Shown piece by piece: positions 1-9,933 of a stretch of 64,000 bases of DNA. The stretch is taken from NCBI RefSeq assembly GCF_001561955.1, contig NZ_CP014223.1:1240001-1304000 (forward strand), in the 5' to 3' direction. The position numbers and the translations under genes are program-made. The notes beneath the pieces are model-generated. The model was not told the DNA's origin, did no database searches, and saw only the letters and a program-made list of their open reading frames with translations. This DNA comes from Anaerotignum propionicum DSM 1682 (lineage in GTDB: Bacteria > Bacillota > Clostridia > Lachnospirales > Anaerotignaceae). Each line of letters opens with the position of its first letter. Within the stretch, counting starts at the first letter, position 1.

Positions 1-1658
1 ACGATCAGAATACATTGGGAATTGCCTATTCCACGGAGGCAGAAATTAGTTTTAAAGATGTTAGGACTTCCATAAGAGATCTTTATATTTACTACGATAT
101 AAATAAACAGAAATACTGTAATGCGATTACAAATGAAATGAATGATATTCAGACGCAATTAGATCACTATGCAAGTAGAATTGCTAATGAGCAGGATCAA
201 CAGAATTTTGATGTAGCTCAGCAGGCATTTAAAAACTATAAAAATGTTGTAGATGAAATTGTACAAGCTGCTAATAATGGAGATTCTAAGGATTCTATAT
301 TGGTATTAATTAAAGAGGGTGCATCAGTTGGGAATGATACATCCAACGCATTTAATACACTTACAGAATATAATAATTTGGCAGCAAAAGAAAATTTGGA
401 CAATGAAAAAACTACATCTTGGATTGCAATTATTTTGATGGCTGTGACGATTGTGATATCTGTGATTATAGCAATTCTTATGAGCAAATTTATATCCAAT
501 ATAATCAGCAGGCCTATGCAGATGCTGGTTATGGTAGCTGAGCATTTAGAAATAGGAGATGTTGATGTTTACAATTTAATGTCTGAAGAGGATAAAAAGG
601 TAAAATACCGAAAAGATGAAATTGGTAAGGTTGCATTAGCTTTTAATAAATTAATTCAGGCAAATATTGCGTTAAGTAAAGAGGCAGAAACGGTTGCCAC
701 AGGTGACTTGACCACAACCGTAACGGTTCGCTGCGAAAAAGATATTATTGGCAAAGCGTTGCGAGATTTAGTTGAGAAACTTCATAGCCTAATTTCATCT
801 GTAGCGATTACTTCCGAACAGGTTGACTTTGGTGCAAGGCAGGTTTCTGATGGAGCACAAGCCTTGTCTGCCGGCACCACAGAACAAGCAGCATCGTTAG
901 AGGAGTTGACTTCTGCGGTTGCTAATATTTCTGAGCAGGCTGTAAATAATGCTGCCAGTGTGCAAAAAGCGGGTGAGTATGTAAATCAGGCTGGTAAAGG
1001 TGTTGTTTCCAGTAGTGAACAGATGGAGAAGTTGAACCATGCTATGAAGGAGATTGGGCAGTCTTCTTTGCAAATTTCTAAGATTACAAAATTGGTAGAG
1101 GATATAGCATTTCAGACAAATATTCTTGCATTGAATGCTGCGGTAGAAGCTGCTCGGGCAGGAAATGCGGGCAAAGGTTTTGCTGTTGTAGCGGATGAAG
1201 TCCGCAATCTTGCGGCGAAGTCGGCTGAAGCAGCGAAACAGACAGCAGATTTGATTCAGAGATCTACAATATTGGTATCCGAAGGGGAAGTACTTGCGGA
1301 TAAAACTGTGCAACTTTTAATCGATGTCTCAGAAAAAGCTGCTATGGTAGAAAACTCTATAATTGAAATAGAGTCTGCTTCATCATCTCAGGCAACTGCA
1401 ATTGAGCAGATTAACCAGGGACTCTCTCAGGTATCGGCCGTTATTCAGACAAATGCAGCAACTTCGGAAGAGAGCTCCGCTGCCAGTGAAGAGCTTGCGG
1501 CACAGGCACAAGTTTTGAAGCAAGAGATTACCCACTTTAAATTAACCAGAGAGAAAGAAAACTACAGCATAAGAGAAAATGAAACCGCTTTCTCCGAAAA
1601 TCAGGGTGAACAAACTGTTTATTTGAACCCCTCAATCAATGACTATGTAAAATATTAA
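1..1658 (+). CDS. Methyl-accepting chemotaxis protein (5' end outside window)
   Basis: Membrane chemoreceptor that passes ligand signals to a CheA/CheW array. The reading frame is open to the left edge (codons in phase with base 3), so the first membrane segment and the true start lie outside the window; a TTG at base 15 is only an internal codon. Visible in order: a helical sensor part resembling the end of a four-helix-bundle ligand domain, a membrane segment at about 421-495, a HAMP linker at about 500-760, then the long cytoplasmic signalling coiled coil. The hairpin tip, with [17 protein letters not shown] and the following [10 protein letters not shown], sits at about 1110-1205 and is diagnostic of the family. 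The C-terminus ([10 protein letters not shown]) shows no classic NWETF-type receptor tail. It is followed by a strong terminator. Family assignment is certain; the ligand is unknown. Confidence 0.97.
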
Positions 1659-1824: not shown

Positions 1825-1860
1825 AACGCCCCTTTACAGTTTGTAAAGGGGCGTTCAGTT
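1825..1860 (+). terminator. Intrinsic terminator of the chemoreceptor gene
   Basis: A perfect 14-bp stem (AACGCCCCTTTACA at 1825-1838 with its complement at 1842-1855) closes a 3-base loop. The tail after it (CAGTTT) has only a short T-run, so termination could be partial. Confidence 0.75.
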
Positions 1861-1884: not shown

Positions 1885-1906
1885 CGCAGTATACTTGATA
1901 CTGTGC
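1885..1906 (+). repeat. Left 22-bp inverted repeat bounding the recombinase gene
   Basis: This matches the reverse complement of 3317-3338 at 21 of 22 positions; the one difference is T at 1904. Each copy is itself a dyad, CAGTAT-ACTTG-ATACTG, so only the 5-base centre is clearly asymmetric. Two inverted half-sites around a short core is the usual architecture of a tyrosine-recombinase crossover site. That it is the substrate of the enclosed recombinase is an inference. Confidence 0.85.
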
Positions 1907-2121
1907 AACTGCAATTAAGTATAATATAATACAATTTATTATATAACAACTGCTTTCAGTTTGTCAATTCGTGCGACATTTTTGTCGAAAAATCACGAAA
2001 ACAAAAATAATAATTTGTATTTTGATTATTACATGGTGCTTTTTCAGTGCAATTACAAGTTTCGCCGTCAAGAGCGACGTCATGGAAGCAATAAATTTAA
2101 TCAAGGAAAAGGAGAATGACA

Positions 2122-3264
2122 ATGGCACGTAGAGGAGAAAACATTTATAAACGAAAGGATAGTCGCTGGGAGGCAAGATTGCTTATCCAGAAGGGAAAGT
2201 ATAGATACTTTTACGGTAAAACTTATAAAGAGGCAAAGTTAAAAATGCGCTTGTTTCAAGAAAATATAAAAATTCATAAAGAGAAACAAGCTGAACAGAA
2301 AACAAATGCATATGTGTTGTTTGAGGGGTGGCTTCAAAAACAGGTGACCTTAAACAATGTAAAACCATTAACTTATGAAAGTTATTACCATTGTATGCAC
2401 AAGCATATCATGCCATTTTTTCAAAATGAGCAAACAAATAGAATCACAATAGAAACTGTTTCGCAATTTACGAAAACTGTCAGTGAGAATGAATTACTTG
2501 CGGACACCTCAAAGAAAAAAATATTCACCATTTTTAAAATTGCTTTGAGAGAAATTTTAAAAGACGAGCTAAACAGCGCCTCTATTCTGGCAGCTGTAAA
2601 ATCTCCAAAACTGGAGACAAGAGAGGTTGAAATTTTTTCGATAAAAGAACAACGGAGCTTGGAAGCGGCTGCACTACAGTCACAGGATCAACGTGCCTTA
2701 GGCATTATTTTATGCCTATATACCGGTATCAGACTGGGGGAGCTTTGTGCTCTAACGTGGGGGGACATTGATTGGGATAGTGGGTTTATGTCAATTACAA
2801 AAACAGTATCAAGAGTGAAAACCTTTAAGCAGGATACAAAAAAGACTGAATTGATAGTAGGAACCCCTAAAAGTCGTAATTCAATGCGTAAGATTCCTGT
2901 GCCGGAATTTCTGTTAAAATTAGTTCGGCATCGGAAACTATGGGAAGAAAATGAAGATGCTTTTGTTCTTTCTGGTAAAGAAACTCCAATTGATCCCAGA
3001 ATATTTCAAAAACTGTATAAAAAATTACTGGTGGACGCACATTTGAGAGATCGTAAATTTCACGCTATACGACACACTTTTGCTACGCGAGGATTAGAAT
3101 TAGGTGTAGATATTAAAACGATTAGTGAGATATTAGGACATTCTAACGTTTCTATAACCCTGAATATATATGCCCATTCTTTAATAGAGCAGAAAAAGGC
3201 TGCAATGGAAAAATATAATGCCATGCATATTGCATCGGCTGAAATCTCTAAATACGCCGTCTAA
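2122..3264 (+). CDS. Tyrosine recombinase/site-specific integrase
   Basis: DNA breaking-rejoining enzyme of the phage-integrase family, 380 residues. The N-terminus (RRGENIYKRKDSRWEAR) is the arm-type DNA-binding fold common in stand-alone clostridial integrases. It is followed by a SAM-like core-binding domain (about 60-160) and the catalytic domain (about 170-370). The catalytic set is complete: R204 in TGIRLGEL, H314 and R317 in HAIRH, H340 in LGHSN and nucleophile Y350 in NIYAHS. I start at ATG 2122 because GGAG at 2111-2114 lies 7 bases upstream; the ATG at 2116 would be too close. No excisionase, relaxase or phage genes are nearby. Instead the gene is enclosed by 22-bp inverted repeats (1885-1906 and 3317-3338), which suggests an invertible or minimal mobile unit rather than a larger integrated element. 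Confidence 0.95.
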   Translation: MARRGENIYKRKDSRWEARLLIQKGKYRYFYGKTYKEAKLKMRLFQENIKIHKEKQAEQKTNAYVLFEGWLQKQVTLNNVKPLTYESYYHCMHKHIMPFFQNEQTNRITIETVSQFTKTVSENELLADTSKKKIFTIFKIALREILKDELNSASILAAVKSPKLETREVEIFSIKEQRSLEAAALQSQDQRALGIILCLYTGIRLGELCALTWGDIDWDSGFMSITKTVSRVKTFKQDTKKTELIVGTPKSRNSMRKIPVPEFLLKLVRHRKLWEENEDAFVLSGKETPIDPRIFQKLYKKLLVDAHLRDRKFHAIRHTFATRGLELGVDIKTISEILGHSNVSITLNIYAHSLIEQKKAAMEKYNAMHIASAEISKYAV

Positions 3265-3732
3265 AACATAGTGTATAATAAAAAAAGGCCCTGAAATTGG
3301 ATGTTTTATGTTTAGGGCGCAGTATCAAGTATACTGCGTTCTTGAAGTCTAAATAAATATCCCCCATACGAATTGATTTATGTGCTTTTTTTATGTTACT
3401 TCCAATGATGATAATTGGATAAAATCACTTTTGAAAGATTTATTTTACCGCAAATGAATATGTAACGTAATATTTTTTGCAAATTTATATCTTAAAATTC
3501 GGAACTTATCTATTCTGTTAAATTACACCATAAGAATGTATCACAATAAAGCCTTAGGTCTATTTTACAGACGATAAATATTCAAGAAATGGGTTCATTC
3601 TTTTGAAGATAAACTCATAATTGGATAATCTATTTTAGTGAAACTATAAAAGGTAAGAAGATTATAAGGAAGAGATAAATCAAAATCATAAATATGGCCT
3701 AAAGAGAAAAAAGCGTAAAGGGGGACGTAATT
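3265..3732. other. Intergenic region between recombinase and HD-GYP gene
   Basis: No gene seen. It contains a weak GCCCT/AGGGC stem at 3286-3318 after the recombinase and the right inverted repeat. Then about 390 bases of AT-rich sequence lead to the HD-GYP gene. That long leader would be downstream of any promoter carried on an invertible segment. Confidence 0.5.
3317..3338 (-). repeat. Right 22-bp inverted repeat bounding the recombinase gene
   Basis: Reverse-complement partner of 1885-1906 (21/22 identical), 53 bases past the recombinase stop. On the plus strand its halves are CAGTAT and ATACTG around CAAGT, the inverse of the left core ACTTG. It could also fold as a 7-bp stem, but no T-run follows, so it is a poor terminator. 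Confidence 0.85.
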
Positions 3733-4410
3733 TTGTTTGAATTTTTTCAAGGTTTAACAGCAGATGAATTGATTCATATGCTGCCTGAAGATCAAATTAG
3801 GCACAGCTTAAATGTAGAAATACTTGTTGGGAAGCTAGTAGAATGGTTGCCAAAGCCTGAGGAAGTACAATTGTTTGAATATTACAGTAGAGCTGCCTAT
3901 TACCATGACATAGGGAAGGTTTGTGTCCCTCCTTATATACTGAATAAAACAGGGGCGTTAACGGTGGAAGAACGCTATATTATTCGATGCCACACAATCT
4001 ACGCCCAGGACTTGCTTGCTTTTTACAGGGAGAGTGGTTCGGGAGAAATTCCTTTATTTCTTCTTCCTCTCACTGTACAGGCGGCTGTTTATCATCATGA
4101 ATGGTGGAATGGGAAGGGATATCCCTATGGGTTAAGCGGTGCAGATATTCCATATGTGGCACGACTAACTTCCATATGTGATGCATATGATGCAATGGTA
4201 AGCAATCGCCCATATCATCTGGCATTTACCCATGAGTACGCATGTGAAGAGATTAGGAGGGGTGCTGGCACCCAGTTCGACCCAGTGCTTGCAAAGGTGT
4301 TTTTAAAGCATAAAAAAGAAATTGCACGCATTATTAATGAAATTTGCACATATCCAACGGACAAGCTTGAATTTGAAATAAAACGACTTTTAATTACCAA
4401 GCAGAATTAA
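3733..4410 (+). CDS. HD-GYP domain protein, probable cyclic-di-GMP phosphodiesterase
   Basis: Cytosolic 225-residue protein made of a single HD-GYP domain, the class that hydrolyses the second messenger c-di-GMP. Motifs seen: metal-binding HDIG at H58-D59, HHE at 121-123, the GYP signature at 129-131 inside NGKGYPYGLSG, then the typical DAYDAM and FDP segments. There is no receiver, PAS or membrane domain, so the sensory input is not in this polypeptide. The chosen start is TTG 3733, with AAAGGGGG about 9 bases upstream; no in-frame ATG lies near the ribosome binding site. Its position just beyond the inverted-repeat-bounded recombinase makes it a candidate target of phase-variable expression (inference). 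It is followed by an intrinsic terminator. Confidence 0.9.
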   Translation: MFEFFQGLTADELIHMLPEDQIRHSLNVEILVGKLVEWLPKPEEVQLFEYYSRAAYYHDIGKVCVPPYILNKTGALTVEERYIIRCHTIYAQDLLAFYRESGSGEIPLFLLPLTVQAAVYHHEWWNGKGYPYGLSGADIPYVARLTSICDAYDAMVSNRPYHLAFTHEYACEEIRRGAGTQFDPVLAKVFLKHKKEIARIINEICTYPTDKLEFEIKRLLITKQN

Positions 4411-8019: not shown

Positions 8020-9933
8020 ATGTTATATTCTTCATTTAGAATAAGAGAGATGGAACTAAAAAACCGTTGGATTATGTTGGCGATGCATACAGGCTTTGCA
8101 GAGGGCAATGAGATTAGCGAAAGAGAATTTGCCTTTTATGAAGCAAGAGCCAAAGGTGGGGCTGCGGGGATAACGTTGACTTTGGCTGTAAATGAGGCCG
8201 GAGGTTTAAAGGGAATGCACCAGATTGGTAATTTATCTTTGCAAAGTCTGAAAGAGTTGGCGGAACGCATACATCAATATGATTGTAAGCTGATTGTACA
8301 GTTGTTTCACTGTGGACGGAATGAAAGCTTAGAAAACCATGAGGATAGGCCTTTGGTAGCGCCTTCACCAGTGCCTTCACCAATTTTTAAGGCCGAACCA
8401 AAGGAAATGAGTGAGAAGGCGTTGGCAGAAACAATCGAGGCCTTTGCTTTTGCAGGGGGGTTTTGCAAAAGTGCAGGTGTTGACGCAATAGAGATTAGCG
8501 CTTCAGCAGGCTACTTATTATCCGAATTTTTATCACCAAACACGAATTTACGAACAGACGCCTATGGCTATGGAACAAATCAGGGAATGAATTTTCCTTT
8601 GGAAGTGATTCACGCTGTTCGAGAGAACGTTGGAGGACTGCCTGTTATTCTTAAGGTTTCCGGTGCACAAATGATGGAGGGTGGGTACGAATTAGAGGAT
8701 ACCATTTCTTTCTGTCGCTTGGCTTCAAAATATATTGACTGCGTTACGGTAACAGGCGGATGGCATGAATCTCCTATTGACCAGATTTCTTATCATGTCT
8801 CTAAAGGTGCTTATGCTCCTTTTGCAGGGGCAATCAGGAAATACACAGCCTTGCCTGTAATAGCCTGTAATCGTATTCATGATGGCGAGACGGCAGAGCG
8901 ACTGTTAGAAGAGAGTCTTTGTGACCTTGTTGGAACTGCAAGAGCTTTTTTGGCAGACCCTCAGTTTGCAAATAGAGTGGAACAAAAGGAATTATTTTTA
9001 CCATGCCAAGGGTGTAACCGCTGTATAACCAGTGTGCTAAAGGGTCAGGAAATATGGTGTGGCTTTAATCCGGAAGTAGGGCAGGAATACTTCGAAAATC
9101 AGCGCAGGAAAATTGCAACACGCAAAGAGGTAGTTGTAGTGGGAGGCGGTCCCGCGGGCATGGAGGCCGCAAAGAAATCGGCAGAGCGTGGTTTTATGAC
9201 AACCTTGATTACGGAGGAATCTTCCTTGGGCGGACAATTTATTCTAGCTGCAAAACCTCCGAAAAAAGACGGGATTTCTGAGTATGTGGCTTATATGGAA
9301 GAAACATTAAAGAATTTAGGGGTCCAGATTATTTTTGGTCAGAAATGTGATGCAGATTTTTTACTTTCAAAAAAACCTTATTTTACGGTTATTGCAACGG
9401 GTAGCCAGCCAAGCAGCCCTGCTATCAAGGGAATAGAAAATGGGATTTTTGCTAACGATATTCTCTCAGGTAAGGTTTCACTGCCTCCCCAGTCGGAAGA
9501 AGGGCAGATTGTAATCATCGGTGGCGGTGTTGTGGGACTGGAAACAGCGGCTTTTATCAAGGAAACGGATCAGGAACGTAAAATTAAAATCATTGAAGCT
9601 AAGACCACCTTTGGAAAAGACCTTGGAGCGTTATCCAGACCTTTAATTTCCCAATTACGGGCTAATGGCGTTCAGCTAATGGCGGACACCACAGCGGATG
9701 CCTTAGAGACTGGGAAAGTTTTTATTTCCATCGGGGAGCAGAAGTTTTTTCTCCAAGGGGATGCTATTCTCTTGGCAACAGGAGCAAAAGCAAGTGAATA
9801 TGCCGATCTAACAATGCCGTTGATGGATGAACGGCTATCTTACGCCTTGGTTGGTGATGCTGAAAATCTCGGAGATGGTGGTGATGCAATCAAATCCGCA
9901 TATGAATTGTTCAAAAGACTTTATCTGGCTTAA
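8020..9933 (+). CDS. FMN/FAD iron-sulfur oxidoreductase of the Old Yellow Enzyme/2,4-dienoyl-CoA reductase family
   Basis: 637-residue multi-cofactor flavoenzyme that reduces activated C=C bonds using NAD(P)H. Order of domains: an OYE-type FMN TIM barrel (about 1-325), a four-cysteine [4Fe-4S] site (C329, C332, C335, C347), an FAD-binding Rossmann fold (GGGPAGMEAA near 376) and a nested NAD-binding fold (GGGVVGLETAA near 505). This layout and length match clostridial enoate reductases, dienoyl-CoA reductases and bile-acid enone reductases; the substrate cannot be read from sequence. The start is ATG 8020 behind GGAGGGA. The gene appears monocistronic, between an unannotated leader and the alr promoter. 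Confidence 0.92.
   Translation: MLYSSFRIREMELKNRWIMLAMHTGFAEGNEISEREFAFYEARAKGGAAGITLTLAVNEAGGLKGMHQIGNLSLQSLKELAERIHQYDCKLIVQLFHCGRNESLENHEDRPLVAPSPVPSPIFKAEPKEMSEKALAETIEAFAFAGGFCKSAGVDAIEISASAGYLLSEFLSPNTNLRTDAYGYGTNQGMNFPLEVIHAVRENVGGLPVILKVSGAQMMEGGYELEDTISFCRLASKYIDCVTVTGGWHESPIDQISYHVSKGAYAPFAGAIRKYTALPVIACNRIHDGETAERLLEESLCDLVGTARAFLADPQFANRVEQKELFLPCQGCNRCITSVLKGQEIWCGFNPEVGQEYFENQRRKIATRKEVVVVGGGPAGMEAAKKSAERGFMTTLITEESSLGGQFILAAKPPKKDGISEYVAYMEETLKNLGVQIIFGQKCDADFLLSKKPYFTVIATGSQPSSPAIKGIENGIFANDILSGKVSLPPQSEEGQIVIIGGGVVGLETAAFIKETDQERKIKIIEAKTTFGKDLGALSRPLISQLRANGVQLMADTTADALETGKVFISIGEQKFFLQGDAILLATGAKASEYADLTMPLMDERLSYALVGDAENLGDGGDAIKSAYELFKRLYLA

Follow-up and report, generated by a model that had tools for sequence, protein, structure and literature searches.

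A probable invertible promoter segment that carries its own tyrosine recombinase gene, beside chemoreceptor and c-di-GMP phosphodiesterase genes in Anaerotignum propionicum

Genes, repeats and promoter at the locus

The window analyzed here is a stretch of 64,000 nucleotides from the genome of Anaerotignum propionicum DSM 1682, with a G+C content of 37.0%. Close to its left end lie the 3' part of a chemoreceptor (MCP) gene, a segment of 1.45 kb (1885-3338) that is bounded by short inverted repeats, as an inverton is, and a gene for an HD-GYP-type c-di-GMP phosphodiesterase (Table 1). The only long gene between the two arms is an ORF of 382 codons (2116-3264), the product of which matches the Pfam family Phage_integrase (PF00589, 8.7e-26). 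Its R, K, H-R, H and Y positions, which we take to be the catalytic ones, are intact and invariant across four species, and full-length frames at 51-74% identity are found in these species. The protein therefore has the catalytic domain, with R, K, H-R, H/W and Y, by which a tyrosine recombinase is recognized. Pfam and PHROGs both place it among the integrases, and its nearest solved relative is the Int protein 6emy, which we take to be Int of Tn1549. The N-terminal stretch presumably resembles an arm-binding domain. The relationship to the Tn1549-type integrase lies in the catalytic domain. That enzyme is a transposon integrase, whereas the sites here are inverted and no transposon genes were noticed beside the unit. 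No PADLOC match pointed to a role in a defence system. A scan of named genome contigs returned two weak relatives (31% and 25% identity), and no repeat was found at L038, which came from the same scan.

Table 1. Features of the recombinase element and its surroundings. Positions are those of the window, except where the prefix G000:C1 marks positions on the genome contig.
Feature	Position	Strand	Remarks
Chemoreceptor (MCP) gene, 3' part	1..1658	+	598 codons; start at G000:C1:1239862
Perfect 14-bp hairpin	1825..1855	.	between MCP gene and left arm; U-tract modest
Left inverted-repeat arm	1885..1906	+	dyad CAGTAT-ACTTG-ATACTG at 1887-1903
Outward promoter	1938..1967	-	TTGACA 1967-1962, 18-bp spacer, TATAAT 1943-1938; 12/12 consensus
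CGCCGTC-N8-CGTCA motif	2063..2082	+	upstream of recombinase
Tyrosine recombinase gene	2122..3264	+	ORF opens at 2116; conserved start MARRG at 2122
CGCCGTC half-motif	3255..3261	+	3' end of recombinase gene; several relatives have a longer form here
Right inverted-repeat arm	3317..3338	-	inverted copy of the same dyad and core ACTTG, at 3320-3336
HD-GYP-type c-di-GMP phosphodiesterase gene	3733..4410	+	Pfam HD_5; HD-GYP motif read by eye
Small inverton	G000:C1:1239162-1239590		29-bp exact arms; without recombinase
Second inverted pair	G000:C1:1239170-1239186 and 1239566-1239582		core AAATA, same arms; 0.4-0.8 kb left of window edge

The two arms match each other in inverted orientation at 21 of 22 positions. 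Both consist of the dyad CAGTAT-N5-ATACTG around an identical core, ACTTG. With up to three mismatches allowed, the 22-mer occurs in the window at these two places only, and 100 shuffles gave an expectation of 0. This pair is also the sole inverted repeat of the window with exact arms of at least 16 bases within 3 kb; 60 first-order random sequences contained a mean of 0.18 such repeats at a length of at least 16, and of 0.017 (one case) at a length of at least 19. Thus, the preliminary description of this DNA was correct in reporting a 22-bp inverted repeat with dyad arms, which stands above both the shuffles and the random sequences, and a complete tyrosine recombinase as the sole long gene inside it. 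It had also proposed that the genome be searched for further copies of the site. Across the 3,120,417 bases of the single-contig genome there are exactly four perfect CAGTAT-N5-ATACTG sites, and these form two matched pairs within 4.2 kb. The additional pair is again inverted, has another core, AAATA, and lies outside the window.

The promoter sits just inside the left arm and reads outward to the left. Flipping would move it to 3256-3285 and direct it at the HD-GYP gene. As judged by sequence, this is the arrangement of an inverton, with a promoter inside that faces out through the repeat toward a target once the segment is flipped. Promoter calls in this study are consensus matches, and at L068 and L193 the score of 11 is equalled or surpassed by the best of 50 shuffles. 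The CGCCGTC-N8-CGTCA motif upstream of the recombinase is a putative recombinase arm site or regulator site, and its one other exact copy in the genome is inside the second inverton. The hairpin left of the segment is a probable barrier to transcription, with the best 50 nt of the left flank folding at -24.8 kcal/mol, though the terminator scan did not list its full stem. Since the same scan missed this hairpin, its failure to list anything on the plus strand of 3339-3732 is a weak negative. A terminator to the left is not general among the elements, because the best 50-nt energies range from -3 to -29 kcal/mol across 25 left flanks. In the leaders of seven loci that were searched for riboswitches, the only match at the gathering threshold was a TPP element outside the module (L066).

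Related elements in two families

A small inverton without a recombinase lies 2.3 kb upstream of the recombinase element, between a LytTR-type response-regulator gene (named by eye) and the chemoreceptor gene. It has its own outward promoter, a 12/12 consensus match. The chemoreceptor seems to have a small inverton of its own, upstream and outside the window. To the left of it, G000:C1:1236014-1238895 (L065:11014-13895) holds AgrB-like, sensor-kinase-like and LytTR-type response-regulator genes, as identified by eye. The promoter of the small inverton, as assembled, is aimed at the latter two and might control those instead of the chemoreceptor. The same two-pair layout is present in another genome of the genus, G002, with the cores AAATA and ACTTA. 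In that genome the small segment and the left end of the recombinase element are alike well beyond shuffles (z 9.7), and this similarity suggests that the segment is a recombinase-less derivative of the element. In A. propionicum the corresponding resemblance is weak (z 2.5, a value reached by one or more of 200 shuffles), and for this reason we limit the claim of derivation to G002.

Relatives of the recombinase were sought at E <= 1e-40 in eight genomes of the genus and were found in four. In all four, an HD-GYP gene is the partner of the recombinase. The extended site is present as two pairs in G002 and as a single copy in G007, where the other arm deviates. The recombinase of G001 is accompanied by a different site. 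No extended site occurs in G003-G006, the four genomes that lack this recombinase. In G007 and G001 the enclosed element is immediately upstream of an MCP gene, and the HD-GYP gene follows further on. The neighbours of the MCP-recombinase-HD-GYP module differ among species, with ORFs judged by eye. In the genomes without the recombinase, no close HD-GYP relative of the module marked a place at which an empty site could be sought; the best match to the module gene in G003-G006 was 4.8e-29, with none in G006, compared with 2.7e-50 or better in the other genomes.

A wider comparison covered 50 loci, 4 from the genus of the window and 46 from a genus of another family in the same order. In that second genus all 25 genomes have close relatives (46 matches at E <= 1e-100), and among the loci counted, L133 and L134 belong to a single locus that is split between the ends of two contigs. 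Repeats enclose the recombinase at 26 of the 50 loci. An outward promoter scoring at least 11/12 accompanies all 26 enclosed copies and 1 of the 24 unenclosed ones, and the CGCCGTC motif is found at 26 of 26 and 0 of 24, respectively. An MCP gene comes next downstream at 23 of the 26 enclosed loci and at 9 of the 24 unenclosed loci. The enclosed exceptions are the A. propionicum element (G000) and that of G002, which have the MCP gene on the other side and the HD-GYP gene downstream, and L133, which is a contig end. Repeats, promoter and motif are jointly present or jointly absent at 49 of the 50 loci; the lone exception, L222, has only a promoter-like 12/12 match. Since the 24 unenclosed copies form one clade in a tree of 68 rows (support 100/94), the three features were probably lost jointly in a single event. 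In the second genus, locus B has the exact site of the window, including the core. With 26 of 50 loci enclosed, the repeats are conserved beside homologous recombinases, and this favours inversion.

In the second genus, nine repeat-less recombinase copies (L197-L202, L206, L207 and L211) have an MCP gene downstream. At L197 and L198, inspection by eye revealed a consensus promoter between recombinase and MCP gene, directed at the latter, and these two may be locked in the ON state. Among more distant relatives (34-40% identity), repeats exceed shuffles at 20 of 46 loci, a set in which L012 and L105 are the same locus and L016 and L017 passed only the wider repeat test. Repeat-enclosed distant recombinases, many of them with dyads and with varied neighbours, are found at L012, L013, L015, L100-L105, L107-L109, L111, L113-L115 and L117-L119. 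This suggests a wide family of self-enclosed tyrosine recombinases in the order. No MCP gene match was obtained within about 1.5 kb on each side of the distant relatives. In G068, a related recombinase lies between inverted repeats of about 165 bp (L138:6656-6813 and 8189-8346), which either overlap sugar-transferase genes or lie directly beside them. This may be a switch within genes by which their starts are exchanged.

Inversion of the segment and its alternatives

We suggest, with a probability of roughly 85%, that 1885-3338 acts as an invertible promoter and carries the gene of the tyrosine recombinase that flips it, and that the second, recombinase-less segment is probably flipped by the same enzyme. 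The sequence itself shows the sites with their promoters and motif, the order of the genes, the conservation of the element, the concerted central bases and, in one relative, the contig breaks. The action of the recombinase on both pairs, the assignment of ON and OFF, and any effect on chemotaxis and c-di-GMP are inferred. The recombinase would pair the two inverted CAGTAT-ACTTG-ATACTG sites and flip the intervening 1.45 kb. In the orientation assembled, the strong promoter would fire left into the hairpin and antisense to the end of the MCP gene, which would be OFF. In the flipped orientation it would fire right through the other site and transcribe the HD-GYP gene about 450 nt downstream, which would be ON. 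The promoter had been thought able to serve either neighbour. The HD-GYP gene is its likely target after a flip. Directed left, the promoter has a strong hairpin between itself and the 3' end of the MCP gene, and this orientation is therefore more likely OFF than a chemoreceptor switch. Because arms and motif are shared with the second pair, the 0.4-kb segment in front of the MCP gene is probably flipped by this enzyme as well. Recombination between the two switches would be prevented by their differing cores, ACTTG and AAATA.

Two observations from the comparison bear on whether such segments flip. The central bases vary among elements, but in each of the 26 rows the two arms have the same ones, with arm mismatches falling elsewhere; a need for matching overlaps in strand exchange would produce this pattern. 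The second observation comes from the draft genome G334, in which two contigs start at the left arm of locus A, C16 at its outer and C22 at its inner edge. A third, C12, starts where the shared block of locus C has its outer edge, and has a 1,730-bp identical, unmerged overlap with the other end of C16. Since a repeat of 13-17 bases alone should not break an assembly, the presence of both orientations among the G334 reads would explain these ends. The chance of three ends falling on repeat edges is 8e-13 (8 edges, 100 contig ends, 4.7 Mb), though C16 and C22 share one break, so that about 1e-8 for two independent breaks is fairer, and the test was framed after the ends had been seen. In the other drafts analyzed, the assembly runs through such repeats, with a patched break near one of them in G284. 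At that place (L128:7296-8100), close to the right repeat of locus A, two identical stretches of about 400 bp are joined across an N, and the assembly probably broke there. As assembled, 25 of the 26 enclosed rows are in the OFF orientation, and the remaining one (L133) is without a downstream flank. Such uniformity would be very improbable under frequent and neutral flipping and is unlike a free 50:50 switch, so OFF must be favoured, by strong bias or tight control, or flipping must be rare. The comparative tests fit the earlier suggestion that the 1.45-kb unit inverts itself, as a segment with its own recombinase and promoter.

It is unlikely that another recombinase of the genome flips the sites, with the enclosed gene a passenger or acting elsewhere. 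The genome does contain 16 recombinase-like matches at E <= 0.001, the enclosed one included, and the C. difficile recombinase RecV serves only a subset of several switches (PMC5903667). However, the genus genomes without the recombinase are also without the sites, and repeats, promoter and motif come and go together around the gene. The preliminary description had offered a minimal mobile unit as its second option, in which the recombinase would excise or transpose the 1.45-kb unit and the repeats would be its ends. The placement among integrases, with 6emy Int as the nearest solved relative, and the changing neighbours of the module among species would agree with this. Direct-orientation attachment sites, as a mobile integrase would have, are absent at 1885-3338, and inverted sites yield inversion, not excision, by this chemistry. 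In addition, 23 of the 26 enclosed copies are upstream of MCP genes. A phage or plasmid origin of the recombinase was rejected as well, since tblastn matches in 1650 phage and 477 plasmid records were all below 60% identity, and the best 20 of each were at most 34.6%. We therefore consider a mobile unit unsupported and very improbable. Least credible of all is a dead relic, an integrase remnant with repeats that survive by chance or as a binding site, because the cut-short frame at L127 (locus B of G144, where repeats and promoter are intact) and the one in-frame stop listed for locus C copies, in which 394-codon frames are yet open, have to be set against catalytic residues and full-length frames kept across four species, concerted central bases and the G334 breaks at the arms.

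Relation to known switches and significance

An invertible element of this kind is known, and inversion at this locus has probably been detected before. In a survey based on read pairs, Sekulovic et al. (2018, PMC5903667) reported that A. propionicum DSM 1682 has a signature of inversion near an MCP gene, and this is probably the locus described here. The genome agrees with that strain at C1:844-849 kb, where two PF06050 genes belong to an operon that in gene order and gene lengths fits lcdCAB-pct, as in CPRO_08370-08400 (PMC10053330), but a published G+C of 44.08% disagrees with the 37.0% of the window. In the available part of its text, the signature is given without anatomy, that is, without the enclosed recombinase, the second pair, the cores, the promoter, the HD-GYP partner or the conservation. 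Our literature search for chemoreceptor or MCP invertons met an inversion signature near an MCP gene only in that paper, among the parts of the sources available. In the C. difficile switches Cdi2/pdcB and Cdi3/pdcC, genes for c-di-GMP phosphodiesterases are likewise preceded by an invertible promoter between short inverted repeats, though PdcB is an EAL protein with a switch of 174 bp, whereas the phosphodiesterase here is of the HD-GYP type; the available text reports the recombinase of the pdcB switch as not identified (PMC9286219). A recombinase gene inside its own invertible segment is also found with Hin of Salmonella and the 844-bp fimbrial segment of Providencia stuartii (PMC5903667). 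Hin is a serine recombinase (PMC3798978), and the enzyme here is a tyrosine recombinase of the integrase type. Unlike both of those segments, the element here is chemoreceptor-linked and is accompanied by a second, recombinase-less pair with a different core. A survey of gut invertons tied its group 139, mostly from Clostridia, to the tyrosine-recombinase group 35, and thus likewise to one recombinase family; the word chemotaxis has 0 occurrences in its main text as available (PMC11892184), in contrast to the chemoreceptor link here.

For the self-contained, chemoreceptor-linked class and for the dual-core arrangement, no description was found in the searchable literature. A fuller proposal can be made, to which we give even odds. 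In this proposal, one recombinase would serve two switches separated only by their five-base cores, with ACTTG controlling the recombinase itself and the phosphodiesterase and AAATA the chemoreceptor, giving four heritable states in which sensing and c-di-GMP signalling are combined. The pair would belong to a wider class of self-encoded chemoreceptor invertons, in two families of one order, that is able to yield recombinase-less derivatives. The naturally matched and unmatched core pairs make the rule of site choice directly testable. Since enzyme, sites and promoter are packed into 1.45 kb, the element could also be put to use as a compact genetic switch that is complete in itself.

The best-known cases of phase variation concern surface structures. 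The segment described here most likely turns steering and signalling genes on and off at random, and the same design lies beside chemoreceptor genes in many relatives. If this is true, random and heritable switching of a chemoreceptor, coupled to a c-di-GMP phosphodiesterase, would make the cells of one clone differ in what they swim toward.
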